In this document: in pieces, positions 50 to 28,173 of the stretch | Layout of the letters: each line of letters starts with the position of its first letter | Position numbering within the stretch: the stretch's first letter is position 1 | NCBI GenBank assembly: GCA_016933475.1 | Contig: JAFGAW010000266.1 | Location: 1-41,509, forward strand | Length of the DNA stretch: 41,509 bases | DNA from: Thermoleophilia bacterium | GTDB taxonomy: Bacteria > Actinomycetota > Thermoleophilia > UBA2241 | Direction of reading: 5' to 3' | Position numbers and translations under genes: made by a program | The notes under the pieces: generated by a model | What the model was told of the DNA's origin: nothing | Database searches by the model: none | Seen by the model: only the letters and a program-made list of their open reading frames with translations

Positions 50-811
50 TCACGTCGACCGCGTCGCCCTGCGTGCCTCCCAGAGCGCGAGGGCGCCGGT
101 CGCCGTGGCGAAGGCGAGCGTCACCGCGAGGCCGATCAGCAGCGGGCGTGCACTCCAGCCCTCATTGAGCAGGGCGCGCATGGCATCGAACACGTAGGTC
201 GTCGGATTGACGGTGGCCGCAGCGCGCAGCCAGCCGGCCTCGATGTACTCGAGCGGCACGAAGGTCGCGCTGAGGAAGATGAGCGGGAAGAAGGCGAACG
301 TCGCGGCTTGGGTAGCGGCCGAATTCTTGGTGCGCAAGGCCATGAAGGCGGCGTAGCCGGCGAACGCCATGCCCCAGAGGAAGGCGTAGCCGACGACGGC
401 GAGCATACCCAGCCATCCGGTGGCCGGGTCGAGACCGAGCAGCAGGCCCAGGAGCAGGATGGCGAGCACCTGGGCCACGAGCAGGACAGCGCTGGCCACC
501 ATGGGGCCCCACACGATGGCGAGCCGCGAGGCGGGCGTCAGCAGGACCTTGGTGAAGTAGCCCGCCTCGATGTCGCGGATCAGCGCCTGCCCGGCGATGC
601 CGGCGCCACTGACCGCCGCCGAGACGATCGACACCGGCAGGATGAAGCCGAGGTACGAGCCCTGGAAGCCCGGGAGTTCGGCGACCGACGAGAGCCCGCT
701 GTTGTAGACGAACAGGAAGAAGACGCTGATCGCGATGCTCGGGATGATCGCAGCCGGGACGCGCAGCGTGCCGGTGAGCGAGCGCCGGACCAGCAAGAAG
801 ACGTCGGTCAC
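50..811 (-). CDS. ABC-2 type transporter permease (DrrB-like)
   Basis: Membrane subunit of a two-gene ABC exporter. The 253-residue product has about six hydrophobic segments (near residues 22-38, 55-75, 105-130, 135-155, 170-190 and 225-245) and the layout of ABC-2/DrrB permeases, including the conserved region around 'AGYFTKVLLTPASR' where the ATPase is expected to dock. It starts with GTG at 811, in a 4-nt GTGA overlap with the stop of the ATPase gene, so the two are translationally coupled. Homologues export drugs, lipids or polysaccharides. The substrate cannot be read from this sequence. Confidence 0.85.
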   Translation of the reverse strand: MTDVFLLVRRSLTGTLRVPAAIIPSIAISVFFLFVYNSGLSSVAELPGFQGSYLGFILPVSIVSAAVSGAGIAGQALIRDIEAGYFTKVLLTPASRLAIVWGPMVASAVLLVAQVLAILLLGLLLGLDPATGWLGMLAVVGYAFLWGMAFAGYAAFMALRTKNSAATQAATFAFFPLIFLSATFVPLEYIEAGWLRAAATVNPTTYVFDAMRALLNEGWSARPLLIGLAVTLAFATATGALALWEARRATRST

Positions 812-1881
812 GGCCGCACCCCCCCGTCGGTGCGGGCAGAGTCCGCCTCGATGCCGTCGTCTTCGCCGTCGGTGCGGGCGGGGTCGACCTCGATGCTGTC
901 CCCGTCCCCGCCGTCGCCGCCGGTCTCGGCATGCCGGCCGGTGAGGCGCAGGAAGACGTCGTCGAGGGTCGGCTGGACGACGTTGAGGCCGCGGAGGGCG
1001 AGACCCGCATCGTCGATGCGGCGGACGAGCGCCGGGACGAGCTCGGCCGCGACCGCGGCGTAGACGCGTACCTCGTCGCCGGAGACCTGGCGCTGTGGAG
1101 CCAGATCGGCGAGCAGCCCGGCGGCCCGCTCCGCTCCGCTCGCGTCGCCGAATTGCAGCTCGACGACCTCGTCGCCGACCTGGCGTTTCAGCTCGCGCGG
1201 CGTCCCCTCGGCGACGATCCTGCCGCGGTCGATGATCGCGATGCGGTCGGCGAGACGGTCGGCCTCCTCGAGGTACTGCGTGGTGAGGAAGACCGTGATG
1301 TCACGCTCGCGGTTGAGCCGCCGGACCTCCTCCCAGATGGCTGATCTGCTCACCGGGTCCAGGCCGGTGGTGGGCTCGTCGAGGAAGAGGACGAGGGGGT
1401 CGTGCACCAGCGCCAGAGCGAGGTCGAGCCGGCGCTTCATGCCGCCGGAGTACTCGCCTACGCGCTTCTTCGCCTCGACGTCGGCCAGGTCCACGGTCAC
1501 GAGGAGGCGCTCGGCGATGCGGTGCGCCTCGGCCCCCGAGGCTCCGAAGAGGCGCGCCTGCAGCACGAGCAGCTCGCGCGCCGTCATGAGCGTGTCGAGG
1601 CCGACCTCCTGCAGCGCGACGCCGATCGCCGAGCGGACCTCGTGACCCTGGTGCCGGACGTCGTAGCCGGCGACCAGCGCCTGCCCTGCCGTCGGCTGAA
1701 GTATGGTCGTCAGCATCTTGACGACGGTGGACTTGCCGGCGCCGTTGGGCCCGAGGAACCCGAACACCGCGCCGCCCTCGACGCGAAGGTCGACGTCGTC
1801 GACGGCGCGCAGGCTGCCGAAGTCCCGGCGCAGCGCGGTCGCGGTGATGCCGCGATCGATCTTACTGTCGTGTAGCGTCAC
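808..1881 (-). CDS. ABC transporter ATP-binding protein (DrrA-like)
   Basis: Cytoplasmic ATPase partner of the downstream permease. Walker A is GPNGAGKS at residues 44-51, the signature is YSGGMKRRLDLAL, and Walker B is LVLFLDEPTTGLDP. A DrrA-type C-terminal domain follows to about residue 310. The 357-residue product then carries an acidic tail of about 40 residues encoded by two 42-bp repeat units. The start is GTG at 1881. No Shine-Dalgarno sits close to it; an AAGGAG lies about 25 nt upstream, so the exact start is uncertain. Likely export of a hydrophobic compound, substrate unknown. Confidence 0.87.
   Translation of the reverse strand: MTLHDSKIDRGITATALRRDFGSLRAVDDVDLRVEGGAVFGFLGPNGAGKSTVVKMLTTILQPTAGQALVAGYDVRHQGHEVRSAIGVALQEVGLDTLMTARELLVLQARLFGASGAEAHRIAERLLVTVDLADVEAKKRVGEYSGGMKRRLDLALALVHDPLVLFLDEPTTGLDPVSRSAIWEEVRRLNRERDITVFLTTQYLEEADRLADRIAIIDRGRIVAEGTPRELKRQVGDEVVELQFGDASGAERAAGLLADLAPQRQVSGDEVRVYAAVAAELVPALVRRIDDAGLALRGLNVVQPTLDDVFLRLTGRHAETGGDGGDGDSIEVDPARTDGEDDGIEADSARTDGGVRP
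826..909. repeat. Two 42-bp tandem units in the ABC ATPase C-terminus
   Basis: GTCGGTGCGGGC recurs at 826 and 868. The two 42-bp units are imperfect and encode related acidic 14-residue segments containing 'ARTDGEDDGIEA'-like sequence. They lie beyond the conserved domains in the tail of the ATPase. Confidence 0.65.
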
Positions 1882-2010
1882 CTGGTCGTCACCGTTCGCC
1901 GCGCGGTCTCCTTCGACCTTAGTTCAGCGGGATTGCCGGAGCGTTCCCCGGTGGTCGTGGGGCCGAAACGGACGCGGCGGTCACCTGTCGCTGAGGCGTT
2001 CTCGCAGGTA

Positions 2011-2016
2011 TACGCT
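2011..2016 (+). promoter_or_regulatory. Possible -10 box of the small interrupted membrane ORF
   Basis: TACGCT fits TANNNT and lies about 38 nt before the GTG start of the interrupted small ORF. No convincing -35 is visible. Confidence 0.3.
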
Positions 2017-2053
2017 CGCCGGCGAAGCGTGTGGGGCAGCAAAGGAGGGTGGC

Positions 2054-2254
2054 GTGAAGACCTGGATCGGGCGGGTCGTCGGCGTGGTCGTCTGAATCGT
2101 CCTCGTGGTCGCCGTGTGCGACTGGCTGTTCGACTGGCCACACTGGCTGGTCTGGTATGCCGTCCCCGGGGCCATCGCGGCCATCAGCGTGATCTCGTGG
2201 GTGATCGAGGACGCGAAGAAGGCACGCCGCCGGCGCGAGGCGACGGCGGCCTGA
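2054..2254 (+). pseudogene. Small membrane protein ORF interrupted by in-frame TGA
   Basis: An excellent Shine-Dalgarno (AAAGGAGG) precedes GTG at 2054. The frame reads 13 codons, meets TGA at 2093-2095, then stays open for 52 more codons to TGA at 2252-2254. Both halves have coding-like G/C-rich third positions and together make a credible membrane protein: a hydrophobic segment spanning the stop (VVGVVV-stop-IVLVVAV), an aromatic loop (DWLFDWPHWLVWY), a second hydrophobic segment, and a basic tail. A strong hairpin follows 14 nt after the last stop. A TGG-to-TGA change is the simplest explanation. Restart at GTG 2105 or 2114, or UGA recoding, are alternatives. I do not recognise the family. 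Confidence 0.55.
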
Positions 2255-2268
2255 ATCTCGGGTGAGGA

Positions 2269-2306
2269 GGAGGCGCGCGGCGCGGTGAACCGCGCCGCGC
2301 GCCTCC
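2269..2306. terminator. Perfect 17-bp hairpin between convergent genes
   Basis: Positions 2269-2285 and 2290-2306 are exact inverted repeats of 17 bp around the loop TGAA. The hairpin lies between the small rightward ORF (ends 2254) and the leftward M20 gene (ends 2327), so it can stop transcription from both sides. There is no long T-tract, as is usual in high-GC genomes. Confidence 0.85.
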
Positions 2307-2326
2307 CGGCTACCCTTGGGTCTCCG

Positions 2327-3730
2327 TCACCCGGCGACGCCGCACCAGCGCATGGTGAGGAGTGCCGTCGCGGCGGCGAAGTCGACGAGGTCGTCGATGC
2401 CCGCCCACTCGTCGATGGTGTGCAGCGTGTCGGCGGGGCCGGGGCCGAAGCAGACGCTCGGCGTGCCGCCGAAGTTGGTGAAGGTCGCGCCGTCGTGCCA
2501 GCTGTCGAAGCCGGTGATGCTGCCGGCGCGGCCGACAGCTGCGCCGGCAGCCAGCGCCGTCGCCACGACGGGGTGCCCGGGATCGACCTCGGCCGGCACG
2601 ACATCGCAGTCCCAGAACCAGCGAAGCGGGTGCTCGCGCAGCCAGGGGTCGACGCGGACGGCGTTCTCGAGCGTCTCTGTGATCTCACGCTCGAGGCCGC
2701 GCGCCGTGCCGTCCTCGTCGACCTGACCCGGCGGGTAGATGACCTCGCACACAAGGCGGCAGCTCGCCGGGTAGGTGACCTCCCACTCGCCGCCGGCGAT
2801 CACCGTCGGCACGATGTCGCCGGCGCTGACGAACGAGTGCTGCATGTCGGGGCGGCCGCGCCACTCCTCGCGCAGCCGCTCGATCGCGTCGAGCACGAGC
2901 TTCATCTTCTCGATCGCGTTCACGGCCCCGCCTGCCCGCCAGTGCGCCTGGCGCATCTCGGCGTGGCCGGGGCGGCCCTCGACGGTGATCGTCGGCGTCA
3001 GCGATCCGCGGCAGGCGACCCAGACGTCGAAGTCGGTCGGCTCAGCGACCACTCCTGCGTCGGCCTTGACGCCGCGGCGCACGGCCGCCCAGCCGCCGGC
3101 TCCCGAGGACTCCTCGTCGGTGACGGTGCAGTAGACGACGTCGCCGGCGAGACGCACGTCGAGCCGGCGCAGTGTCTCGAGCGCGAAGAGCATGCCGGCG
3201 AGCCCGCCCTTCATGTCGGCGGCGCCGCGCCCGTAGATACGTCCGTTGCGGACCTCGGCGGCGAACGGGTCGCTCGACCACAGCTCCTTCGGCTCGGCTG
3301 AGACCGCATCGATGTGCCCGTTGAGGAGGAGACTGCGGCCGCTACCCCGGCCCGCGAGGCGGGCCGCCAGCTGCGGCCGGCCCTCGAAGGTCAGCCCATC
3401 CGGCACGTGCCGGTTGCCGCTCCCGGTGCTCTCCGGCTCCCACAGGTCGGTCTCCGCACCGATCGACCGCAGGCGCGCTTCGAGCAAGCGCTGCAGGCGG
3501 TCCTCGTCGCGCGGCGGGTCACCGGTCTCGCGGGCCGTGGTGTCGAGCCCGACGAGCTCGCGCGCCAGCGCGACCAGCTCGTCGCGCCCCTCGGCCACGG
3601 CCGCGACGACGCGCTCTTCGAGGGCGTTCATCGCCACCGCCGGCGTGCCGTCGGTGCGGGGCGGATGCACGTCGGTGCCGCGCCCCCCGGGGACACCCTT
3701 CGCCGCACGATCGACCTCGTTCCCCGCCAT
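2327..3730 (-). CDS. M20 family metallo-deacylase (ArgE/DapE-like)
   Basis: Zinc-dependent amidohydrolase of the ArgE/DapE/ACY1 group, acting on an N-acyl amino acid or small peptide in the cytoplasm. All family metal and catalytic signatures are present in order: GHIDAV (His139), GRGAADMKGG (Asp172), VTDEESSG (Glu206/207), VVAEPTD (Glu230) and TLHTIDE near the C-terminus. The start is taken as ATG 3730 because it overlaps the stop of the upstream M24 gene as TGATG. ATG 3631 is an alternative that removes 33 non-conserved residues. It is the last gene of the PAS-M24-M20 operon, so it probably processes what the M24 enzyme releases. The substrate is not determinable. Confidence 0.85.
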   Translation of the reverse strand: MAGNEVDRAAKGVPGGRGTDVHPPRTDGTPAVAMNALEERVVAAVAEGRDELVALARELVGLDTTARETGDPPRDEDRLQRLLEARLRSIGAETDLWEPESTGSGNRHVPDGLTFEGRPQLAARLAGRGSGRSLLLNGHIDAVSAEPKELWSSDPFAAEVRNGRIYGRGAADMKGGLAGMLFALETLRRLDVRLAGDVVYCTVTDEESSGAGGWAAVRRGVKADAGVVAEPTDFDVWVACRGSLTPTITVEGRPGHAEMRQAHWRAGGAVNAIEKMKLVLDAIERLREEWRGRPDMQHSFVSAGDIVPTVIAGGEWEVTYPASCRLVCEVIYPPGQVDEDGTARGLEREITETLENAVRVDPWLREHPLRWFWDCDVVPAEVDPGHPVVATALAAGAAVGRAGSITGFDSWHDGATFTNFGGTPSVCFGPGPADTLHTIDEWAGIDDLVDFAAATALLTMRWCGVAG

Positions 3731-4929
3731 CAGACGACCGTCAGCGTCGCCGGGAACCGGGCGGGGATCTCGACCCCCGTCTCCGTCGCGATCATCGTGT
3801 CGATGACGCCGACGCCCTCCTTGCGCGGGATGTCCCAGATCTGGACCTCCCAGTTGGCGACGAAGCCGGGGTCGAAGACGCCCTTCTCGAAGCCCTCCTC
3901 GTCGTTGAGGTAGACGTGGCCGACCCAGTCGGGCGGCATCGTCGCGCCGAGGACATAGCCGCCGACCCACCACACGTACTCGCGCAGGCCTCCGGCGGCG
4001 TCGACCGCTTCGTCCATCAGCTGCTGGAGCTTCTGCGTCGGGTCGCCGGGACGGAGCTGCGCGACCGTCTCGTCGCGCACGGCGGCGAGCTTCTCGAGCT
4101 TCTCCGCCCAGAACGGGTCCTCGCCCAGCGAGAGGGCCCGCGCCGTGTTGCCGTGGTAGTGGTGGTAGGCCGCCGACATGTCGATCATCAGCAACTCGCC
4201 CTGCTCGATGCGCCGCTCGGTCGCGGGATGGTGGAAGTTGAAGGTGTTGGGCCCGGTGCGCACCATCATGCGGATGCCCGGCTCGTCTCCCCCGCGCTTG
4301 GCGCACTCGTAGTAGAGGAGACCCATGATCTCCTTCTCGGTCATGCCCGGGGCGAGGGTCGCGGCGAGGACCTCGTAGGCGGCGTCGGCGATCTCCAGCG
4401 CCTTGCGCGTGTACTCGATCTCCTTCGGTGACTTGACGAGGCGCGCGTGGTCGACGATCCACGAGCCGTCGACGACCTCGGCGGCGCCGGCGCCAGCCAG
4501 CCGGCCGGCCAACTCCTGCAGAGCCGGCCCGCCCGGCGCCCAGCTCCAGTACTCGAGCCCGACACGCCCCTTGAGCAGGCCCCGGTCGCGCAGCGTCGCC
4601 GCCACGACCTGGGGGCCCTCCGGGTAGTAGAAGCCCTCCTCGCCGTACGTGACGCCGTCCTCGACGACCGGCGACCACCCGGGAGCATGGTCCCAGGTGT
4701 CGAACATGACCGGCTTGACGGCGGCGTCGAGCGGGACGGCCAGGCCGGTGACGTTACGGCCGTCCCACCAGACCGACTGGTGCCCGAGCAGGTAGTAGAG
4801 GTTGGGCGGCGAGGTCACGTAGAGCAGCTCGACGCCCCTACGCGCCATCTCTTCACGCGTGCGCTCGAGGCGCTCCGCGTACTCCTGCCTGGCGAACGGC
4901 ATCCCCCAGCCCGCAGCGTCGTCAGTCAT
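3730..4929 (-). CDS. M24 family creatinase/ectoine-hydrolase-like enzyme
   Basis: Pita-bread-fold hydrolase, 399 residues: an N-terminal creatinase-type domain (to about 160) and a C-terminal M24 domain. In metal-dependent M24 peptidases two Asp ligands lie 11 residues apart. Here the first is kept (Asp250 in MIDMSAAY) but the second is Asn261 (HGNTARAL). The C-terminal Glu pair also looks altered (NWEVQI, GVIDTMI). The His of 'FHHPATERRIEQG' matches the catalytic His of creatinase. This favours a metal-independent C-N hydrolase such as creatinase or ectoine hydrolase over a true Xaa-Pro aminopeptidase. Shine-Dalgarno GAGGAGGGG precedes ATG 4929. The M20 deacylase gene overlaps its stop. Confidence 0.75.
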   Translation of the reverse strand: MTDDAAGWGMPFARQEYAERLERTREEMARRGVELLYVTSPPNLYYLLGHQSVWWDGRNVTGLAVPLDAAVKPVMFDTWDHAPGWSPVVEDGVTYGEEGFYYPEGPQVVAATLRDRGLLKGRVGLEYWSWAPGGPALQELAGRLAGAGAAEVVDGSWIVDHARLVKSPKEIEYTRKALEIADAAYEVLAATLAPGMTEKEIMGLLYYECAKRGGDEPGIRMMVRTGPNTFNFHHPATERRIEQGELLMIDMSAAYHHYHGNTARALSLGEDPFWAEKLEKLAAVRDETVAQLRPGDPTQKLQQLMDEAVDAAGGLREYVWWVGGYVLGATMPPDWVGHVYLNDEEGFEKGVFDPGFVANWEVQIWDIPRKEGVGVIDTMIATETGVEIPARFPATLTVV

Positions 4930-5630: not shown

Positions 5631-6998
5631 ATGCGCGTCTATGAGCGTCGCAGCGCGATGCCGGTATCGGCCGACGACTTGTATGCGTGGCACGCGCGGC
5701 CAGGCGCCTTCGAGCGCCTCGCACCCCCCTGGCAACGCCTGCGCGTGGTCGAGCGCAGCGGGACGATCGAGGATGGCGACCGGCTGGTGATGGATGCCCC
5801 CGTCGGGCCGGCGCACGTGCGCTGGGTCGCCGTGCACCGCGAGCACGTCCGCGGACGCCAGTTCGTGGACGTGCAGGAGAAGGGACCCTTCGCCCTTTGG
5901 CGTCACCGGCACACTTTCGAGCCGGACGGTGAGCGGCAGAGCACGCTTCACGACACGGTCGAGTACGAGCTCCCGGGTCCGCCGGCGGTGACGCGGGCGG
6001 GGGAGGGCGCCGCGCAGCGGCGGCTCGCGCGGCTGTTCGCGTTCCGGCACGATAGGACGCGGGACGACCTCGAGCGCCACCTCGCCTTCGCTGACCGGCC
6101 GCGTTTCCGGGTCGCGATCGCCGGGGCGAGCGGCTTCGTCGGGTCGCACCTCGCCGCCTTCCTCACCACCGGCGGTCACGAAGTCGTGCGACTGACGCGG
6201 CGGCGGGATCCGGGGCCGGGATGGGTGCACTGGGACCCGGCGACCGGGGTGGTCGACCAAGCCGCGCTCGAGGGTGTGGACGCTCTCGTGAACCTGGCCG
6301 GCACGTCGCTCGCGGCGTTGTGGACGCCGGGGCGCCGCCGGGACATCCTCGACAGCCGCCGCCAGACTACGGCTCTCGTCGCTGCCGCGGCGGCCGCGCT
6401 GCCGCGGCGGCCGCGCGTCGTCATCTCGGCCTCAGCCGTGGGGTTCTACGGCAGTCGCGGCGCCGAGGAGCTGACCGAGGAGAGCGCCGCCGGCCAAGGG
6501 TTCCTCCCCGAGGTCTGCAAGGTCTGGGAGGACGCTCTCGAGCCGGCGCGCACGGCGGGCATCCGGGCGGTCTCGCTGCGTTTCGGCCTCGTCTGGGGCG
6601 GCGCCGGCGGGATGCTGCCGCTGATGGCGATGCCCTTCAAGGCGGCGCTGGGTACGCGCCTCGGCGACGGCGAGCAGTGGATGAGCTGGATCGCCATCGA
6701 CGACCTCCTCGGCGCGGCGCTGCTGGCGCTCCACGACGATGGGCTCTCGGGGCCCGTGAACGTGACCGCACCCGAGCCGGTCACCAACCGCGACTTCACG
6801 CGCACCCTGGCCAGGGTGGTGCGGCGGCCGGCGCCGTTCGCGGCGCCGCCGGGGCTGCTCGAGCGCGGTCTCGGCGACATGGGTCGCGAGCTGCTGCTCA
6901 CCAGCCAGCGCGTCAGGCCGGCCCGCCTCACGGAGGCCGGCTTCCACTGGCTCTTCCCCGACCTCGAGGCGGCCCTGCGCTTCGAGCTTGGCCGGTGA
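5631..6998 (+). CDS. SRPBCC domain fused to TIGR01777-family NAD-dependent epimerase
   Basis: A 455-residue two-domain protein. Residues 1 to about 150 look like an SRPBCC ligand-binding domain (MRVYERRSAMPVSADDLYAW...). From about 160 there is an extended SDR epimerase of the TIGR01777/YfcH family, with the Rossmann motif 'VAIAGASGFVGSHL', 'VVISASAVGFYGSRG' and a C-terminus ending 'FHWLFPDLEAALRFEL'. ATG 5631 was chosen for the purine-rich AAGGGGGTGG upstream and because conserved sequence begins there; the frame is open farther upstream. The fusion is known in actinobacteria and cyanobacteria. Its substrate is unknown. The SDR gene downstream may be co-transcribed. Confidence 0.85.
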   Translation: MRVYERRSAMPVSADDLYAWHARPGAFERLAPPWQRLRVVERSGTIEDGDRLVMDAPVGPAHVRWVAVHREHVRGRQFVDVQEKGPFALWRHRHTFEPDGERQSTLHDTVEYELPGPPAVTRAGEGAAQRRLARLFAFRHDRTRDDLERHLAFADRPRFRVAIAGASGFVGSHLAAFLTTGGHEVVRLTRRRDPGPGWVHWDPATGVVDQAALEGVDALVNLAGTSLAALWTPGRRRDILDSRRQTTALVAAAAAALPRRPRVVISASAVGFYGSRGAEELTEESAAGQGFLPEVCKVWEDALEPARTAGIRAVSLRFGLVWGGAGGMLPLMAMPFKAALGTRLGDGEQWMSWIAIDDLLGAALLALHDDGLSGPVNVTAPEPVTNRDFTRTLARVVRRPAPFAAPPGLLERGLGDMGRELLLTSQRVRPARLTEAGFHWLFPDLEAALRFELGR

Positions 6999-9220: not shown

Positions 9221-10030
9221 TCAGACGGTCTCGATGCTCAGCATGCCGAGAGCTGTCGTGACATCGATCTCGAGGCTGGGGCGGGCACCTGCCTCGTACT
9301 CGGGCGTCGCGTACTCGCCGCCCCAGAAGGTCGCCCCGGTGTCCTTGCGCACGAAGCCCGGCCCTATCGTCATCTGCGCGATGGCGCCGCTCACCTTGAC
9401 CCGCGCCGGCACGCCCGAGCTGATGAGGATCGCGCACGAACCGAGCGCCGCCGTGACCTCTGCCTTGGCATCGCGATTGAGCGTGTCGCCGGTGAAGTGC
9501 AGACGGGCGCTGCCGGCGGCGCCCTTGATCTCGAAGCGCTCGGCGCTGGCGTTGAGGAGTCCCTCGAGGCGCAGCGAGCCGGCCCCGGTCAGCACGCGCA
9601 GGGTCGACATCGGTGTCAGGACCGGCCGCGCGAAGCCGATCGTGGACTCAGCTGCCCCGGCCTGCACGAGCAGTTCGGTGATGGGCAGGCCGCCGAACTC
9701 GTACGAGGCGTGGCCGATGCCGCCCTTGACGTGGAGAGCGTACGGCTTCGTCGTGCCGAGCTCAAGGTTGAGCCGGTTCACTCGGTCGCGGCCCAGAAGG
9801 CTGTCGATGCGCCAGCCCTCCGGGTGCGTGAAGCGGACCTCCCCGCCGTGCAGCTCAACGGCGGGCGCGCACTCAGGCGCGTCGCACTCAAGGGTGCCGG
9901 CGAGGAGCTGCTCTCCCGTGCCCGGTTGTGCGGTGACGTCCCCGGGCGCCTTCAGCGTGAGGACCAGAGTGACGGGATCGACGTCGGGGTAGGCGACATC
10001 GATCGCTTGCGTGCGGAGTTCGTGCGCCAC
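9221..10030 (-). CDS. Toast-rack/LiaF-like protein (DUF2154-type)
   Basis: A 269-residue beta-rich protein without transmembrane segments. The central part ('GGIGHASYEFGGLPITELLVQAGAAESTI' region) looks like the toast_rack/DUF2154 repeat fold. The C-terminus ('WGGEYATPEYEAGARPSLEIDVTTALGMLSIE') matches the end of LiaF/YvqF-type cell-wall stress proteins. GTG 10030 is chosen because GGGAGGGAG precedes it at good spacing and the residues upstream in frame look non-coding. Related proteins usually have an N-terminal membrane region; it is absent here, so this may be a soluble form. Function unknown. Confidence 0.65.
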   Translation of the reverse strand: MAHELRTQAIDVAYPDVDPVTLVLTLKAPGDVTAQPGTGEQLLAGTLECDAPECAPAVELHGGEVRFTHPEGWRIDSLLGRDRVNRLNLELGTTKPYALHVKGGIGHASYEFGGLPITELLVQAGAAESTIGFARPVLTPMSTLRVLTGAGSLRLEGLLNASAERFEIKGAAGSARLHFTGDTLNRDAKAEVTAALGSCAILISSGVPARVKVSGAIAQMTIGPGFVRKDTGATFWGGEYATPEYEAGARPSLEIDVTTALGMLSIETV

Positions 10031-10155
10031 GGTCTCCCTCCCAGGACGTGGCCGACCGCGAACGCGGTCGGGACCGGCTGACCTCTCGCCCGGGTCATAC
10101 CCGTTCAGTGCGGCGAAGGCGACCCGGACGTTCTCGGGCCGGCACGACGGCCGAT

Positions 10156-11223
10156 TCAGCCGGGCGTGGCGTCCCTGGGGCCGGGCGACCGTGCGATCGG
10201 CTGCTGCTGCGTGATGCAGTGGACGCCACCGTCGGCGCGGGCGAGGGTCCACGCGGGGACGCCGACGACCGCGCGGCCCGGGAAGGCGCGAGCCAGGATG
10301 TCCCGCGCCGTCGCGTCCTCGAGGTCGTCGAAAAGCGGCACGACGATCGCGCCGGTCGCGACGTAGAAGTTCAAATACGAGGGTGAGTAGAGGACGTCGT
10401 CTCGCATGCGGACCCGGGGCTGAGGCAGCTCGATCACCTTCAGACGTCGGCCCCTTGCGTCGCGCGCCGCGCGCAGCCGGGCGAGGTTCTCGTGCAGCGC
10501 GGCATACTGGGAGTCCGACGGGTCATCCTCGCTGAGGGCGAGGACGACTCCCGGCGCCGCGAAGCACGCCAGGTTGTCGACGTGTCCGTTGGTGTTGTCG
10601 TGGTCGAGCGCGCCGGTCAGCCAGATGACGCGCTCGGCGCCGAGATGTTCGCCGAGGATGCGCTCGGCTTCGGCGCGCGTCATGCCCGGGTTGCGGCACG
10701 GGTCGAGGACGACCTCTGTCGTGGCCAGCAGTGTGCCCTCGCCGTCGGTGTGAACGGCGCCGCCCTCGAGGACGATGGGCGCCTCGACAGCACGGACGCC
10801 GAGCAGCGCACACACCCGGCGCGCCATGGCGGCGGTGTCTTCGTAGTGCGTGTAGATGCCGCCGTAGGCGTTGAAGCGCCAGCAGATGCCGGCGAGAGCG
10901 CCTTCGTCATCGATGACGAAGGTCGGGGCCGTGTCGCGCGTCCAACTGTCGTCGGTCGGCAGCGGCACGATCTCGACGCCCGGTCCGAGGGCGCGGCCTG
11001 CGTCCTCGGCGTGTTCGGGGTGGGCGATCATCCGCACCGGTTCGAACTCGGCGATGCGGCGCGCGACGGCGACGTAGGTCGCGCGCGCCGCCTCCATGTC
11101 CTGCCAGTTCTCGGGGCGACAAGGCCATGCCATCCAGCAGGCCGAATGGGGCGCCCACTCGGGCGGCATGCTGAAGCGGCACGAGGCGGGTGAGGACGCG
11201 CGCGGGGCGTTCAGAAGGGTCAT
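10156..11223 (-). CDS. aguA: Agmatine deiminase (peptidyl-arginine deiminase superfamily)
   Basis: Converts agmatine to N-carbamoylputrescine and ammonia in the agmatine route to putrescine. The 355-residue protein has the family landmarks: 'PPEWAPHSACWMAWP' at the N-terminus, 'TDDSWTRDTAPTFV' near residue 91, 'LDHDNTNGHVDNLACF' with His214 and Asp216, and the C-terminal nucleophile Cys336 in 'GGVHCITQQQP'. The start at 11223 is supported by a TAAGCT box six nt upstream, the leaderless spacing seen elsewhere in this window. Met19 is a less likely alternative. No N-carbamoylputrescine amidase gene is adjacent. Confidence 0.88.
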   Translation of the reverse strand: MTLLNAPRASSPASCRFSMPPEWAPHSACWMAWPCRPENWQDMEAARATYVAVARRIAEFEPVRMIAHPEHAEDAGRALGPGVEIVPLPTDDSWTRDTAPTFVIDDEGALAGICWRFNAYGGIYTHYEDTAAMARRVCALLGVRAVEAPIVLEGGAVHTDGEGTLLATTEVVLDPCRNPGMTRAEAERILGEHLGAERVIWLTGALDHDNTNGHVDNLACFAAPGVVLALSEDDPSDSQYAALHENLARLRAARDARGRRLKVIELPQPRVRMRDDVLYSPSYLNFYVATGAIVVPLFDDLEDATARDILARAFPGRAVVGVPAWTLARADGGVHCITQQQPIARSPGPRDATPG

Positions 11224-11334: not shown

Positions 11335-11982
11335 ATGGGCCGCATGGGGTGGCAGTTCCCGAGCGCGCGCGCGGTGCGCGTCCTCGACATCGTCATCGTC
11401 GTCTATGTCATCGTCTGGGCGGCGCTGGGAATCGCGATCGGTCGCGATATCGCCCAGCAGGTCGACCTGGCCGACCAGGTGGCGCGCGTGGGGGCGACGC
11501 TGCGCGCCACCGGCGAGGGCTTCGAGGCCCTGTCGGCGATCCCGTTCGTCGGAGACGACATCGGCACCGTCGCAGAGCGCGTCGTCACCGCCGGCACCGA
11601 GGTCGAGGCGAGCGGCCGGGCGAGCGCCGACGCGATCCGTGAGATGAGCGTGCTGGTCGCGGTCGCCGTCGGCGTGCTCCCACTCCTGGTCCTCGTCCCG
11701 CTGTACCTGCCGATGCGCCTCGCGTGGCGCCGCGACGTCGCGGCAGTGCGCGAGGCGCTGCGGCGCGACGGGCCGACGCCCGCCCTGCAGCGCGTGCTCG
11801 CCCTGCGGGCGGTCGGCTCGCTGCCGTACGACCGGCTCCGTGCCGTCGAGCCCGACCCCTGGGCTGCGCTGCTGGCCGGCGACGACGGCGGGCTGGCCAC
11901 GGCCGAGCTCGCGCGCCTCGGGCTCGTCACGGGCGCTCAGACGCCAGGCGGCGCGAACGGCCCTGGCGAGAGGGAGTCCTGA
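11335..11982 (+). CDS. Membrane protein with two transmembrane segments
   Basis: A 215-residue protein with one transmembrane segment near residues 17-36 and a second near 102-125. The Ala/Glu-rich region between them ('GRASADAIREM') probably faces outside. A cytoplasmic C-terminal helical region of about 85 residues follows. ATG 11335 is preceded by GGGAGGAGCG. The DUF2207 gene begins within its stop (TGATG), so the two are probably co-translated and may act together. I do not recognise a characterised family. Confidence 0.75.
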   Translation: MGRMGWQFPSARAVRVLDIVIVVYVIVWAALGIAIGRDIAQQVDLADQVARVGATLRATGEGFEALSAIPFVGDDIGTVAERVVTAGTEVEASGRASADAIREMSVLVAVAVGVLPLLVLVPLYLPMRLAWRRDVAAVREALRRDGPTPALQRVLALRAVGSLPYDRLRAVEPDPWAALLAGDDGGLATAELARLGLVTGAQTPGGANGPGERES

Positions 11983-13901
11983 TGTCGGCGAGGCCGGCCG
12001 GGCCCGCAGCCGTTAGACTCGACCGGATGGCCCGGCTTCCATTGACCGCGCGCCGGCCGCTCGGTCACGGCCTGCGCATCCGCCCGCAGATCGTCTTCAC
12101 GGCGCTCGTTGCCGCCGCAGCCGCTCTGATCTCGTTCGGGCTGCCCGCGACGGTCCTCGCCAAGTCGTACACCATGCCGGAGGTCACCATCGAGGCGACG
12201 GTGCGCCCCAGCGGCGACATGGTCGTACGCGAGACCCGCGTCTTCGACTTCGACGGTGACTTCAGCTTCGTCTACTGGGACCTCGAGGGGGCCGGGTCGT
12301 CGGGCATCGAGGTGCGCCGCGTGAGCGGCCCCGAGGGCGAGTACATACGCACCGACGACCCGGGGAGCCGCCCGCCGCGGACGTGGTGGGCGGCCGGCGA
12401 GGGCGGCGGCGACGTGCGCCTCGAGGTCTACTTCCGGCAGGCCGACGCGCTCGTCCCGGTCACGATCGAGTACGTCGTTCGCGACGCCGCGACCAAGTGG
12501 GACGACACCGCCGAGCTGTATTGGAAGTTCATCGGCGAAGAGTGGGACCACGGCGTCGGCCAGGCAGACATCCGTATCGCACTGCCTTCCGGTGTCGAGC
12601 AGGACGAGGTCCGCGCCTGGGGCCACGGTCCGCTGAACGGCGTGGTCACTCGAGAGCCCGATGGGTCGGTCAGCCTGACGGTCGAAGACCTGCCGCCGTA
12701 CCGCTTCGTCGAGGCCCGCATCCTCTTCCCGCGGGAGGCGCTGACCGGCGCGCCGGCCACCGCGGGGGCTCGGGTGGATGAGGTGCTCGCCGAGGAGCAG
12801 CGGTGGGCCGACGAGGCCAACGCCGAGCGGCGTATGGCCTCGCTGCGCCGGGCGGCAGGCCTCGTGATCGGCATCGGCGTGCCGCTTGCCGCGCTCGTCG
12901 TCTTCATCTGGACGTACCGCAGGTACGGGCGCGAGCACCGGCCGAGCTTCGCCGGCGAGTATTACCGCGACCTCCCCGAGCCGGCCCTGCCGCCGGCCCT
13001 CGTCGGCTCTCTTTGGCGTATGGGCGCGGTGAAGGACGAAGATGCGGTCGCGACCCTGATGGACCTGATCGATCGCGGCGTCGTCGAGCTCGAGCGGACG
13101 GCTGAGGAGAAGCGCGGCCTGTTCGGCACGCGTCAGGAGACGGGCTATCGGCTGCACTTGCGCGCCGAGCGCCGGGCCGAGGCGTCCCGATTCGAAGCCA
13201 AGCTGCTCAAGGTGCTGTTCGACGTGCTGGCGGAGGGCGACACGCTGGACGTCGACGAGATGAAAGACCTCGCCAAGAAGCATCGCAGCACGTTCGCCAC
13301 GGCGTGGGCCGCGTGGCGCGCCGCGGTAACGAGAGAGGCCAATGCCCGTGGACTCCTCGAGAAGAGCAGTACCACGGCCCACGGCTGGACCCTGGCGCTC
13401 GGCGGCGTGGCCATCGCGGGCTCGGCCGGTGCAGTCTTCGTCTCGGAGCAACTCCGGTACGCCGTCGGTGCCGTCGTCGGCGTGGGGATCCTGGTCGGTG
13501 CCCGCGCGATCAAGCGGCGCTCGCCCGAAGCGGCTGAGCTGTACGCCAAGTACCGCGGCATCCGCAACTACATGAAGGACTTCGGTCGCATGGGCGAGAA
13601 GCCGCCGGACTCCGTCGTGCTCTGGCGGTACTACCTGGTGCTGGCCGTGGTGTTCGGTATAGCCGACCAGGTCGTCGACGACCTCGAGCTGGTCGCCCCC
13701 GAGGTGCTGCGGGACGACCGTCTCGGCTCCACCGCCTTCCTCGTGACGGCGACTCACGGCAGCTCACCGCTGTCGTCGCTGAGCTCGGGTCTTTCGGGGG
13801 CCGTCGCTGCCGGGACCGCCTCGAGCGGCAGCGGCGGCGGCGGCGGGTTCTCCGGCGGCGGGGGCGGCGGAGGCGGCGGAGGGGGCGGCGGGGCGGGCTG
13901 A
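11982..13901 (+). CDS. DUF2207 membrane protein with glycine-rich C-terminus
   Basis: A 639-residue membrane protein. It has an N-terminal signal or anchor (VFTALVAAAAALISFGLPA), an extracytoplasmic DUF2207 beta domain (about 60-280, beginning 'MPEVTIEATVRPSGDMVV'), a transmembrane segment (VIGIGVPLAALVVFIW), a cytoplasmic winged-helix-like region ('GSLWRMGAVKDEDAVATLMDLIDRG' region), further hydrophobic segments, and a tail of almost pure glycine typical of the family. The function of DUF2207 is unknown. Two starts are plausible: ATG 11982, coupled to the previous gene with GAGAGGGAG upstream, or ATG 12027, which sits 7 nt after a TAGACT box and would be leaderless. Confidence 0.85.
   Translation: MSARPAGPAAVRLDRMARLPLTARRPLGHGLRIRPQIVFTALVAAAAALISFGLPATVLAKSYTMPEVTIEATVRPSGDMVVRETRVFDFDGDFSFVYWDLEGAGSSGIEVRRVSGPEGEYIRTDDPGSRPPRTWWAAGEGGGDVRLEVYFRQADALVPVTIEYVVRDAATKWDDTAELYWKFIGEEWDHGVGQADIRIALPSGVEQDEVRAWGHGPLNGVVTREPDGSVSLTVEDLPPYRFVEARILFPREALTGAPATAGARVDEVLAEEQRWADEANAERRMASLRRAAGLVIGIGVPLAALVVFIWTYRRYGREHRPSFAGEYYRDLPEPALPPALVGSLWRMGAVKDEDAVATLMDLIDRGVVELERTAEEKRGLFGTRQETGYRLHLRAERRAEASRFEAKLLKVLFDVLAEGDTLDVDEMKDLAKKHRSTFATAWAAWRAAVTREANARGLLEKSSTTAHGWTLALGGVAIAGSAGAVFVSEQLRYAVGAVVGVGILVGARAIKRRSPEAAELYAKYRGIRNYMKDFGRMGEKPPDSVVLWRYYLVLAVVFGIADQVVDDLELVAPEVLRDDRLGSTAFLVTATHGSSPLSSLSSGLSGAVAAGTASSGSGGGGGFSGGGGGGGGGGGGGAG
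12014..12019 (+). promoter_or_regulatory. -10 box for possible leaderless internal start of DUF2207 gene
   Basis: TAGACT is followed by seven nt (CGACCGG) and then the in-frame ATG at 12027. This is the spacing seen at the larA-like and rarA starts. It could give a second, leaderless start independent of the upstream gene. Confidence 0.4.
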
Positions 13902-13912
13902 GCGCCGCCCCC
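13881..13912. terminator. Hairpin overlapping end of DUF2207 gene
   Basis: Positions 13881-13890 (GGGGGCGGCG) pair perfectly with 13903-13912 (CGCCGCCCCC) around a 12-nt loop containing the stop codon. Termination is plausible, but the left arm is also forced by glycine codons. Confidence 0.4.
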
Positions 13913-14023
13913 AGTCTCCTCTCCGCGGCCCCAGCGCCCGCCCGGCGCAGCCATCGGCCCCCCAGTCGGCCGCTCAGCCGCCCGGCGGTTGAGAATCCGG
14001 AGTGCAAGCCATACTCAGGGCTG

Positions 14024-15577
14024 ATGGACGAGATCCCGCTTTTGGTGCCGCTCGACTATCCGGCGTTGCGGGGTGTCGAGACGCTGGCCGTGGGCAGCGC
14101 GAAGGTGCCGCGCCTGCCCTGTCTGCGGGAGCTTGTCGAGGCGCCCGACGTCGAGAGCGTCGCCGCTGTCCTCGCCGCGAACGGCGCCACGCTCGACGGC
14201 TATGCCGCCGCTCTTGCGGCCGACGGGCTCGGCGACATGGCCGCGACGCTGCGCAGGGTCGTCGAGCGCGCCGCCCGACTCAAGCGCATGAACGCCGACC
14301 TCGCCGCGGTGCTCACCTGGCTGCTGAACGCCCAGCACAAGACGGCGGGACGGGCCACCATGACCTTCGCGCCTTGGGCGGCGACCAGGGACGTCCAAGG
14401 ACCGGCCTGCGTGGACACGGGGGATCCAGGGTCGCCGCGTGTCGTCCTCTCGGAGCCCGCCGCGGCCGCGGCTGCCGTCGCCAATGCGTGGGTGTACGAG
14501 CGCCTCATCGGGCGCCTGAACGCATCCGCGTGTGGACGTCCCGGGGGAGCGGTCGCCGACGTCGCGGCGCGGATGGGGAGCGAGGGCGCGCTGCAGCCTC
14601 GCTTCGCGCGCCCGCACGAAGTCAAGTCGCTCCTCAAGATCGACTACAAACTCGACCGCCGAGGCGACCTCGTCATCGTCGATGTGAACGCCGGTCTCGT
14701 CGGAGCCTGGTTCGACGACCTGCTGCTCGACCGGTCCCCGGAGTTCGCGGTCACCCAGGAGCGCATCACGCCGAGGCTTGTCGCGGCCGTGCTCGGGCGC
14801 TACCACATTCAGCGTGGACGCCTGCCGCGGCGTGTCGCGCTCTGCGTGCTCGATGAGGAGATGTTCCGGCAGTGGGAGACGGCCGACATCGCTGGACTCA
14901 CGGCCGAGTTGAGGCGACAGCTCGGGGATGCGTGTGCCCCCGTCGCCGACATCGCCGTCATCGACGCGGCCGGCCTTGTGACGATCGCTCGCAGGCAAGG
15001 CGCTCCCGCGCTCTTCGCGGGCGCCTGGGAAGGGACACCCGATCTGGTCGTCTTCTACTCCTGCCGCATCGCTCCCGAGGCCGACCCCGCTGTGCTCGCG
15101 GCCCTCGATGAGGCCGGCGTGACGCTCGTCGACAGTGCCGTCCATGGAGTCGCCGCGAGCAAGGAGCTCACCACGCCGGACGCCCTCGGCTCGGGTCTGC
15201 CCAGAGGGGTGCGCCTGCCGGAGACGTTCATCCTGGGGGCGGCCGAGGACGGCACAGGAGCGGTCGCCGCCGTGGAGCAGGCTTGGGCGGCGGCCGGCAG
15301 ACGTGGCTGGGGCCTCCTCGCTGTCAAGATCGACAAGCAACGCCGGGAGGGGGCCACGGGCGACTTCCCGACAGCGTTTCTCTACCCGGTGACGCCCTTG
15401 GGGCGGGAACTGGCGCAACGACAGATCGAGCGCACGTTCGACGGCGTGACCGCGACCTCCGGGCGGCCTGTCCGCCTCGTGGTCACCCACGTTGACCATC
15501 TCGGCGGGTGCGACGGACCGCTCGGGCGCCGCGACATCGAGATCCGCACGTACGCGTTCCCCGTGCTGCCGACCTGA
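14024..15577 (+). CDS. Unrecognised protein, ATP-grasp-like features
   Basis: A 517-residue soluble protein of unknown family. Several segments recall circularly permuted ATP-grasp enzymes of the glutathionylspermidine-synthase type: 'IDYKLDRRGDLVIVDVNAG' (a substrate or Mg-site-like D...D..VN motif), 'TPDLVVFYSCRI', 'GVTLVDSAVHGVAASKELT' (like the strand and Lys that bind ATP), and 'WGLLAVKIDKQRREGATGDF' (a second nucleotide-site-like Lys). This is an inference from motif style only. ATG 14024 has only a weak CAGGG and a CATACT eight nt upstream. The unknown gene at 15751 follows after 173 bp on the same strand and may belong with it. Confidence 0.6.
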   Translation: MDEIPLLVPLDYPALRGVETLAVGSAKVPRLPCLRELVEAPDVESVAAVLAANGATLDGYAAALAADGLGDMAATLRRVVERAARLKRMNADLAAVLTWLLNAQHKTAGRATMTFAPWAATRDVQGPACVDTGDPGSPRVVLSEPAAAAAAVANAWVYERLIGRLNASACGRPGGAVADVAARMGSEGALQPRFARPHEVKSLLKIDYKLDRRGDLVIVDVNAGLVGAWFDDLLLDRSPEFAVTQERITPRLVAAVLGRYHIQRGRLPRRVALCVLDEEMFRQWETADIAGLTAELRRQLGDACAPVADIAVIDAAGLVTIARRQGAPALFAGAWEGTPDLVVFYSCRIAPEADPAVLAALDEAGVTLVDSAVHGVAASKELTTPDALGSGLPRGVRLPETFILGAAEDGTGAVAAVEQAWAAAGRRGWGLLAVKIDKQRREGATGDFPTAFLYPVTPLGRELAQRQIERTFDGVTATSGRPVRLVVTHVDHLGGCDGPLGRRDIEIRTYAFPVLPT

Positions 15578-15750
15578 GGGTCGTAGCTGTTCGGGGCCCT
15601 CGCCATGGGGCGATGGCCGGGTCGACAGACGGTCCGCCTGCTCTTGCCCGCGCCGTTTGCCCGCCCCTCGGGGCGGGAAGGTTGCGGCCGCAGGCGAAAC
15701 GCGAGTCCCCTCGAGCTCCGCACGGCGGCGGTGAGGGCGAGGAGGCATCG

Positions 15751-16179
15751 ATGGCACGTCACGTCCCCGTCAAGTTCCAGGACAAGCTGCGTCTCGTGCA
15801 GCGCGCTGTCGACGTGGCTCGCGGGCAGGAGCGCCGGCACTTTGACTTCAGCGACGAGGTCGCTCCAGGTGTGAGACTCGTGCTCAGCGAGGCCGGCGGC
15901 GTGCCGATCGCTCTCTCCCTCTGGAGTTCCGCCACGGACATCGCCGAGCTTTGCGGCGACGCCGCCTACCCGGCGACCTCTGCCCTGCTCGCCATCGACC
16001 GGGAGCAGGCTCACGAGCTGGCCGACGCCGGGGTGCTCGTGGATCTCGCGCAGCTGACGCGTAGCGAGTCGACGCCGGGGCTCTACTACGCGCTGTTCGA
16101 CCACGCGAGCCCGCGCCGGCTCCACGAGGTCCTTCACCGCCTTATCCCTGCGCTGCCGTCGCACGGCCGTGCCGCCTGA
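15751..16179 (+). CDS. Hypothetical protein, 142 aa
   Basis: A soluble protein that I do not recognise, behind a strong Shine-Dalgarno (GAGGAGG) at ATG 15751. The N-terminus is basic and helical ('KFQDKLRLVQRAVDVARGQERR'-like). The middle is beta-rich ('GVRLVLSEAGGVPIALSLW') and the end is helical. It has a single Cys in 'ELCGDAAYP' and no clear catalytic motif. It follows the unrecognised 517-residue gene on the same strand. Confidence 0.65.
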   Translation: MARHVPVKFQDKLRLVQRAVDVARGQERRHFDFSDEVAPGVRLVLSEAGGVPIALSLWSSATDIAELCGDAAYPATSALLAIDREQAHELADAGVLVDLAQLTRSESTPGLYYALFDHASPRRLHEVLHRLIPALPSHGRAA

Positions 16180-16208
16180 GGCCGTCGCCCGAACGACCGT
16201 ATGACCGC

Positions 16209-16217
16209 TGCTACGAT
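16209..16217 (+). promoter_or_regulatory. Extended -10 promoter of rubrerythrin operon
   Basis: TGCTACGAT combines the extended TGn element with TACGAT (TANNNT). It lies about 90 nt before the rubrerythrin start, leaving an untranslated leader of roughly 85 nt. No convincing -35 is visible. Confidence 0.4.
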
Positions 16218-16307
16218 GGGTGCCCGCACCTGCGTGCACGACGACGGCGGGGCCGGGTCCGTCGCGCGCTGACGGCCGTGCCCCCTCGAAAGGAGGAGCA
16301 CAGCACG

Positions 16308-16853
16308 ATGGAAGCCCCCTACCTCAACACCCCCCCGCCGCCCGAGGAGCTCGGCGCGATGACGCGGGCCAATATCGAGGCGGCGCTCGCCGGCGAGAGT
16401 CAGGCGTCGCAGAAGTACCTCGCCTTTGCCGCCGTCGCCCGCGAAGAGGGCTACCCGAACGTGGCCCGGCTCTTCGAGGCGGTGGCCTACGCCGAGAGCA
16501 CGCACGCCCGCAACCACCTCAGCGTGCTCGGCCAGATCGGCACGACGGCGCAGAACCTGAAGGCCGCCTGGGGCGGGGAGACCTTCGAGATCGACGAGAT
16601 GTACCCGGCCTACGCCGCCGTCGCCAAGCTGCAGGGCAACGAGTCGGCGCAGCTGACCATCCGCTTCGCCCTCAAGGCGGAGATGGATCACCAGGAGATC
16701 TACGACAGCACGCTGAAGGGCGTCGAGGGCAAGAAGGACTTCGACGAGAGCGTCGTCTACGTGTGCCCCGTCTGCGGGCACACGGTGATCGGCAAGCGCC
16801 CCGGGTACTGCTCGCAGTGCTACACCGACGGCTCCTACTTCCGGGAGTTCTGA
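16308..16853 (+). CDS. Rubrerythrin (first of tandem pair)
   Basis: A 181-residue diiron peroxidase-type protein that probably reduces hydrogen peroxide in the cytoplasm. The ferritin-like four-helix domain supplies the metal ligands in 'ALAGESQASQKY', 'AVAYAESTHARNH' and 'ALKAEMDHQEIY'. The C-terminal rubredoxin-like domain has two CxxC pairs (CPVCGHTVIG and CSQC). ATG 16308 was chosen because a very strong AAAGGAGGAG lies just upstream. Its stop overlaps the start of the next rubrerythrin, so the two are coupled. The order is ferritin-like domain then rubredoxin domain, as in classical rubrerythrins. Confidence 0.92.
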   Translation: MEAPYLNTPPPPEELGAMTRANIEAALAGESQASQKYLAFAAVAREEGYPNVARLFEAVAYAESTHARNHLSVLGQIGTTAQNLKAAWGGETFEIDEMYPAYAAVAKLQGNESAQLTIRFALKAEMDHQEIYDSTLKGVEGKKDFDESVVYVCPVCGHTVIGKRPGYCSQCYTDGSYFREF

Positions 16854-17398
16854 TGGACGCCGAGACCGAGAAGCGCCTCCCCAAGCCGGAGGACCTCAAG
16901 GAGATGACTCGCCAGAGCCTGGCGGCGGCGTTCGCCGGCGAGAGCCAGGCGGCGGAGAAGTACCTGGTGTTCGCCGAGCAGGCCGAGGACGAGGGCCTGC
17001 CGCAGATCGCGAAGCTGTTCCGCGCCATCTCGTTCGCCGAGACGCGGCACGCCCGCAATCACCTGCGTGTGATGGGCGGCATCGCGAGCACCGCCGACAA
17101 CCTGAAGACCGCGTTCGACGGGGAGTCGTTCGAGGTCGACGAGATGTACCCGGCGTACCGGGAGATCGCGGTCACGCAGGAGAACGCCCAAGCGAAACGG
17201 AGCATCAGGTTCGCGCTCAAGGCCGAGGTCGACCACAGGCGCATGTACAGCGAGGCGCGCGAGCAGGCGCTCAAGGGCGAGGACATCCCCGACGAGCCAG
17301 TGAGCGTCTGCCTCATCTGCGGCCACACGGTGATCGGGGAACTGCCTGACAAGTGCCCGGTGTGTGCGGCGGCCAAGGAGTACTACAGGACGTTCTGA
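16853..17398 (+). CDS. Rubrerythrin (second of tandem pair)
   Basis: A second 181-residue rubrerythrin, identical in length to its neighbour and clearly paralogous, but diverged in sequence. Diiron ligands lie in 'AFAGESQAAEKY', 'AISFAETRHARNH' and 'ALKAEVDHRRMY'; rubredoxin cysteines are in CLICGHTVIG and CPVC. It starts within the TGATG overlap with gene one, so it is made from the same message. Tandem duplication followed by divergence is the simplest origin. The two proteins could form hetero-oligomers. Confidence 0.92.
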   Translation: MDAETEKRLPKPEDLKEMTRQSLAAAFAGESQAAEKYLVFAEQAEDEGLPQIAKLFRAISFAETRHARNHLRVMGGIASTADNLKTAFDGESFEVDEMYPAYREIAVTQENAQAKRSIRFALKAEVDHRRMYSEAREQALKGEDIPDEPVSVCLICGHTVIGELPDKCPVCAAAKEYYRTF

Positions 17399-28130: not shown

Positions 28131-28173
28131 CTGACCGCGCGCTAACCGAACCCTAACCCGGCGCCGGTAGCGT
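28131..28173 (+). promoter_or_regulatory. Triple PHO-box-like repeat and -10 upstream of pstS
   Basis: CTGACCG at 28131, CTAACCG at 28142 and CTAACCC at 28153 are three direct repeats exactly 11 bp apart, the helical spacing of PHO boxes. TAGCGT at 28168-28173 is a TANNNT -10 box 8 nt after the last repeat, so the repeats cover the -35 region, as expected for PhoB-type activation. Confidence 0.7.

Follow-up and report, generated by a model that had tools for sequence, protein, structure and literature searches.

An accessory orphan gene in an actinobacterial genome may encode a divergent, permuted ATP-grasp ligase

Two adjacent genes that belong to no recognised family raise the question of whether they work together and of what the larger one encodes. 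They lie in a stretch of 41,509 nucleotides (hereafter the window) from a Thermoleophilia genome that is incomplete (2.49 Mb in 295 contigs, about 80% complete). An earlier note, made from the letters alone, had described them as a two-gene unit, a candidate ligase reminiscent of permuted ATP-grasp enzymes together with a small partner. Both reading frames are present as claimed, each running from an ATG to a stop codon on the same strand:

14024 to 15577, + strand: 517-residue orphan protein, probable circularly permuted ATP-grasp enzyme (open reading frame, coding-like, no credible relative)
15751 to 16179, + strand: 142-residue protein of an order-restricted family (open reading frame, relatives, alignment of ten members)

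The segments that had prompted the ATP-grasp comparison are also in place in the 517-residue protein: DYK...GDLVIVDVNAG at residues 207-224, SKELT at 379-383 and VKIDKQ at 434-439. That its frame looks coding was indicated at two levels, codon-position GC content (.76,.53 and.86 at positions 1, 2 and 3) and a codon score trained on frequencies from the 15 Pfam-matched genes of the window. The GC filter is a loose one, since it passes some shadow frames (one of them opposite the 142-residue gene) and omits the 142-residue frame itself. By the codon score, the 517-residue frame is the best of the six both over the whole gene (0.35 versus 0.06 for the next) and in 6 of 6 sub-windows. The 142-residue frame likewise ranks first of six, and AGGAGG directly precedes its start codon. 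The high G+C content of this DNA yields long shadow frames, including one of 580 residues opposite the 517-residue gene. Among the 32 gene calls of the window, the 517-residue gene has the second least typical codon usage, which would fit a gene that was acquired or is weakly biased. Elsewhere in the window, an agmatine deiminase-like gene (PAD_porph) situated 2.8 kb upstream on the opposite strand was given no weight; a coding-like frame of 343 residues (9221 to 10252, - strand) overlaps its end, and Pfam gives nothing for it at E<=0.001.

The relationship between the two genes was approached through the gene order around them, which in the window is delimited by the following features:

11979 to 13901, + strand: gene of a DUF2207 membrane protein, bounding the conserved block on the left (PF09972 1.3e-31, PF20990 4e-45)
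16302 to 16853, + strand: rubrerythrin, bounding the conserved block on the right (PF02915 8.5e-23)
16853 to 17398, + strand: second rubrerythrin (PF02915 8.5e-24)

Downstream of the two rubrerythrins, Pfam identifies an AhpC/TSA-like protein and an antibiotic-biosynthesis-monooxygenase-like protein. The 142-residue gene is carried by 10 of the 15 genomes sampled from the order (all of one family, 74-97% complete) and by none of 45 others of the class, and a profile of the ten members finds a match in only 1 of 296 phylum genomes, the one from which the window comes. In all ten carriers a rubrerythrin gene lies immediately downstream. On the other side, DUF2207 is the next gene upstream in six of the nine relatives, with gaps of 119 bp (G010), 165 bp (G001 and G009), roughly 170 bp including a 12-base run of N (G002), 529 bp (G011) and 798 bp (G005); none of these gaps is long enough for the 517-residue gene. 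The remaining three relatives (G004, G006 and G008) have other genes upstream. Gene names in the relatives come from reading of their translations, Pfam having been run on the window copies. The 517-residue gene is thus an accessory gene, an extra one within a variable gap between DUF2207 and the block formed by the 142-residue and rubrerythrin genes. The gap of G005 holds a different open reading frame on the opposite strand (L012, 702-1501) with a weak likeness to DUF6069 (E 0.56), so that the interval may be one in which genes are gained. A repeat search over 13600-16320 revealed no mobile-element signature around the 517-residue gene, as the repeats found there are all short and none flanks it as a terminal pair.

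This arrangement speaks directly to the proposal of a ligase with a dedicated partner, to which we now give next to no probability. In its favor, the genes are adjacent on the same strand with 173 bp between them. However, co-occurrence across the 14 other genomes of the order (74-97% complete) is against it, since the 142-residue gene is present in nine and a credible match to the 517-residue protein in none, and the companion of the small gene in every carrier, including 9 of 9 relatives, is rubrerythrin. The 517-residue gene is an extra one between genes that otherwise adjoin, the pair is not a unit, and the ligase-plus-partner model was rejected on the grounds of synteny and co-occurrence. 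The 142-residue gene is a conserved neighbor, not a partner.

The 142-residue protein was confirmed as unrecognised: its best Pfam match at E<=10 is sub-threshold (E 0.023), and NCBIfam, PADLOC and PHROGs returned nothing. Its ten members align with 33 invariant columns. Like the components of rubrerythrin/peroxiredoxin-like clusters it adjoins rubrerythrin in all its carriers, but it matches no known family above cut-off. A scan of genome contigs gave a single clean named relative, in palsa_645 (Actinomycetota), and since this is a palsa metagenome genome, the source habitat of the window is probably soil. Among the relatives, contig PKWQ01000107.1 (L042, labelled Acetobacteraceae), part of a reference genome, is probably chimeric: near position 5990, genes read as fmt, truA and def-like are joined to the rear of a 142-residue gene and a rubrerythrin gene, and the latter part closely resembles palsa_645.

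The 517-residue protein, also described as unrecognised, proved even more isolated. No relatives were detected in Pfam (empty at E<=10), NCBIfam, PADLOC, PHROGs or the PDB sequences, nor on plasmids and phages (tblastn, E<=10). Searches of four overlapping samples of 99, 396, 15 and 399 genomes, with E limits of 0.001, 0.001, 1 and 0.01, respectively, gave 13 distinct non-self matches with E values from 3.9e-6 to 0.016 and at most 25.7 bits. The genes under six of the 13 were examined, and five are other proteins by reading (an RsmB-like methyltransferase, a sugar-binding protein, a corrinoid protein and two MurA), while the sixth (L002) sits in a short open reading frame. The other seven (L034-L040) have E values of at least 9.7e-4 and at most 18.4 bits. 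None of the 13 was counted as a relative. Within the rest of the order (14 genomes) no match was credible, with four at E 0.0075-0.016, of which the three inspected lie in other proteins. Two scans of genome contigs and three of viral contigs found no relatives either, the second genome scan matching relatives of the 142-residue protein alone. These scans use patterns of 7-8 residues, exact or lightly degenerate (six in the second genome scan, two of them on artificial junctions), and relatives of moderate identity could escape them. Because short near-exact matches are needed, "orphan" here means orphan at such sensitivity; at the sensitivity of the searches used, the gene is found only in its own genome.

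Evidence on the nature of the protein comes from a short segment in its first half:

14639 to 14689, + strand: residues 206-222, IDYKLDRRGDLVIVDVN, ATP-grasp metal-binding strand pair (D207, D220, N222), from a biotin-carboxylase profile and a signature pattern

The likeness noticed earlier in DYK...GDLVIVDVNAG is upheld here, as the segment matches the metal-binding strand pair of ATP-grasp enzymes with its [DE]-x-N. A 17-column profile built from 28 biotin carboxylases alone aligns to it gap-free with 15.0 bits, a score reached by 3 of 20,000 shuffles, or by 4 of 20,000 when the composition of the protein itself is the background. Shuffling destroys local runs, a weakness for which a comparison of reading frames partly makes good: among the 383 six-frame open reading frames of the window this segment is the best, the next scoring 11.5 bits. 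A long pattern in which hyd-[DEQ]-[FY] is placed before the strand signature has 29 matches in 40 genomes and none in its backward control; besides the window, all 28 matches have PF02786 (CPSase_L_D2), and 27 also have Biotin_carb_C. Most of these represent one orthologous gene per genome and therefore do not amount to 28 independent families. Moreover, the pattern was devised once the window had been compared with the biotin carboxylase of its own genome (L047), which makes the profile from 28 biotin carboxylases the fairer test. The short pattern, G-x3-hyd-hyd-[DE]-hyd-N, has nine matches in the same genome (backward control 0), which include that biotin carboxylase (Pfam) and the large subunit of carbamoyl-phosphate synthase (L049, by reading). 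Three more are, by reading, an amino-acid permease, EF-G and a protein of beta-lactamase fold, and one falls outside a matching frame. Two neighboring genes of this genome on another contig, L045 and L046 on C28, are also among the nine and both carry the metal-strand peptide GRYCLMEVN; L045, the one of the pair that was scanned, weakly matches CPSase_L_D2 in Pfam (7.8e-07), and the two are perhaps a duplicated, little-known ATP-grasp gene. For the 517-residue protein, residues 206-222 provide the one solid support of an ATP-grasp assignment. The gap-free strand pair is shared with the CPSase_L_D2 domain of biotin carboxylase, which nevertheless differs in being unpermuted and in two other segments that are unmatched in the window protein: profiles of its lysine strand and EIQ strand find their best places elsewhere, at scores that 121 to 3933 of 5000 shuffles reach.

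The position of the strand pair within the chain bears on the permutation. Eukaryotic glutathione synthetase is a well-described case of a circularly permuted ATP-grasp enzyme, and the remaining candidate elements were sought with a chain of four motif profiles taken from four eukaryotic glutathione synthetases of the PDB:

15149 to 15175, + strand: residues 376-384 around SKELT, with K380 as candidate first ATP lysine (motif chain, weak)
15320 to 15364, + strand: residues 433-447, AVKIDKQRREGATGD, with K438 as candidate second lysine, E442 as candidate metal glutamate, and a glycine loop (motif chain, weak)

The chain picks D207, D220, K380 and K438 in order, under spacing limits that were set after the positions had been seen. 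Its score is reached by 48 of 2000 shuffles with the standard background and by 5 of 2000 with the protein's own composition. Against 19 other proteins of the window, the 517-residue protein comes out on top with the standard background, and a phosphate-binding protein at 28173 scores higher with own composition. With the standard background, the motifs of D207 and K438 lie at their own best place, and those of D220 and K380 score better elsewhere. K380 and K438 are separated by 58 residues, and K438 and E442 by 4. For glutathione synthetase, PMC2845819 gives the ATP lysines as K305/K364 in the human enzyme, K324/K382 in yeast and K363/K428 in T. brucei, and places D130, E146 and E386 of yeast at the metal site. 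The corresponding yeast spacings (K324-K382 and K382-E386) are therefore also 58 and 4, and the human ones 59 and 4. A metal strand early in the chain, mostly helix-like sequence before it, and strands with a Lys/Arg-Glu-Gly loop near the C terminus make a permuted domain the natural reading, and K380, K438, E442 and their spacing weakly suggest a permuted ATP-grasp domain in the order of eukaryotic glutathione synthetase.

Comparison at the level of whole families did not extend this likeness. No curated ATP-grasp family model matches the protein. A profile-profile alignment, one of the checks that the earlier note proposed, gave no support, with a 0.3% hhalign probability for CP_ATPgrasp_1. 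By HMM and pairwise scores, CP_ATPgrasp_1 (PF04174) and GSP_synth (PF03738) do no better than shuffles and give no sequence match; by reading, both share with the proposed architecture of the window protein the permuted halves, an early ExN/DxN strand and a late Lys-glycine loop. The eukaryotic glutathione synthetase family (PF03917) is not listed by Pfam for the protein and shows no sequence match with it, and an HMM of the four glutathione synthetase chains omits the protein while listing 232 control sequences. Pairwise comparisons with glutathione synthetases gave Z values of 0.4 to 2.2, and in the human alignment the motifs are out of register. When the halves were restored to unpermuted order, they had no match in Pfam or among PDB sequences. 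A PF03917 search that found 0 of 396 phylum genomes shows nothing, since it also found 0 of 14 controls.

Models of the structure are of low confidence. AlphaFold2 without relatives gave a pLDDT of 39 for the whole protein and of 44 for residues 262-517, from which two further features were read:

14825 to 15070, + strand: residues 268-349, alternating strand and helix, read as a putative pre-ATP-grasp Rossmann-like domain (low-confidence models)
15467 to 15559, + strand: residues 482-512, the final two strands, interpreted as the putative adenine strand and the beginning of the C-lobe sheet (low-confidence model)

In the model of residues 262-517, the order after residue 400 is strand-helix-strand-strand-helix-strand-strand, a predicted topology that resembles an ATP-binding lobe at a confidence too low to rely on. 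Foldseek and VIA searches with this model found nothing at E<=0.001, with Z at most 3.6, and no ATP-grasp chain was among the best 50 matches of each, a result that is uninformative for a model of pLDDT 44. The description of the protein as ATP-grasp-like and permuted thus stands in part: one statistically sound motif and, weakly, the order and spacing of residues agree with it, and a family match, whole-length similarity and a confident fold were not obtained.

If the protein is a permuted ATP-grasp enzyme, its domains would be arranged as in glutathionylspermidine synthetase and the eukaryotic glutathione synthetase. First would come the C-lobe strands that bind metal (D207, D220-x-N222), next a Rossmann-like domain, and at the C terminus the ATP-binding lobe (K380, K438, E442 and the glycine loop). 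By analogy with such enzymes, further roles can be proposed. D207, D220, N222 and E442 would hold two magnesium ions, and K380 and K438 the phosphates of ATP. A carboxylate would then be activated by ATP as an acyl phosphate and attacked by an amine to give the joined product. Shared with eukaryotic glutathione synthetase (PF03917; 2hgs, 1m0t, 3kaj) would be, in this order, the D..[DE]xN element, the putative Rossmann domain, the candidate first lysine and the candidate K-x3-E glycine loop. The differences lie in D220-x-N222 of the window, where the human enzyme has E144-x-N146 (D replaces E), and in the glutathione site. Of S149, S151 and R267 (human numbering), reported in PMC2845819 to bind glutathione, none has a counterpart in a hand alignment, in which L225 and G227 occupy the places of the serines and R125 is K. 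In addition, the window protein ends 75 residues after E442 and the human one 106 after E368, and these approximately 30 fewer residues after the glycine loop would leave no room for the A-loop. With its glutathione-binding residues missing and its C-terminal end shorter, the protein is, in the respects tested, no glutathione synthetase.

An ATP-grasp assignment is more probable than not, and a divergent permuted ATP-grasp ligase is the reading of the 517-residue protein that we moderately favor from its sequence. Its main competitor, which we hold to be unlikely, yet worth serious attention, is that the protein is an orphan of some other fold and that its strand-turn-strand with D-x-N resembles ATP-grasp enzymes by chance or through convergence. 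Such a view would account for the absence of whole-domain similarity by every method used and for the occurrence of the shorter motif in three other proteins of this genome, by reading a permease, EF-G and one of beta-lactamase fold; the full 17-residue signature is nevertheless confined, among 40 genomes, to ATP-grasp genes and the window, and its profile score is seldom reached by shuffles (3 of 20,000).

Distinctly less probable is an ATP-grasp-like fold that serves a kinase or other phosphotransferase, or that belongs to an inactive relative, rather than to a carboxylate-amine ligase. ATP-grasp kinases with D-x-N exist, and the aspartate at D220-x-N222 in place of glutamate would suit them, as would the lack of counterparts, in the hand alignment, to the glutathione-binding S149, S151 and R267. 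The candidate lysines and E442 are, however, all present, which argues against a dead enzyme. The remaining explanation, a spurious frame or a chimeric contig, is very improbable. Long shadow frames such as the 580-residue one, the probable chimera among the relatives (L042) and the somewhat atypical codon usage could be cited for it. Against this, the frame is the best of six by codon score throughout its length, and each flank has its orthologous counterpart in a single continuous block of the relatives, so that a chimera would need two joins.

Returning to the divergent permuted ATP-grasp ligase, its fuller version is a tentative one, which we consider possible without leaning toward it: the protein may represent an undescribed ligase family, missed by the profile libraries used, with glutathione-synthetase-like spacing but lacking the substrate loops of that enzyme, which would form an amide- or peptide-linked small molecule in one actinobacterial lineage. 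If true, it would add a new branch to the permuted ATP-grasp enzymes, and it would show that an enzyme can escape standard profile libraries while its catalytic frame remains readable. The analysis also keeps apart two genes that annotation might else have paired, and draws attention to a small family of rubrerythrin-linked proteins found in one order only.
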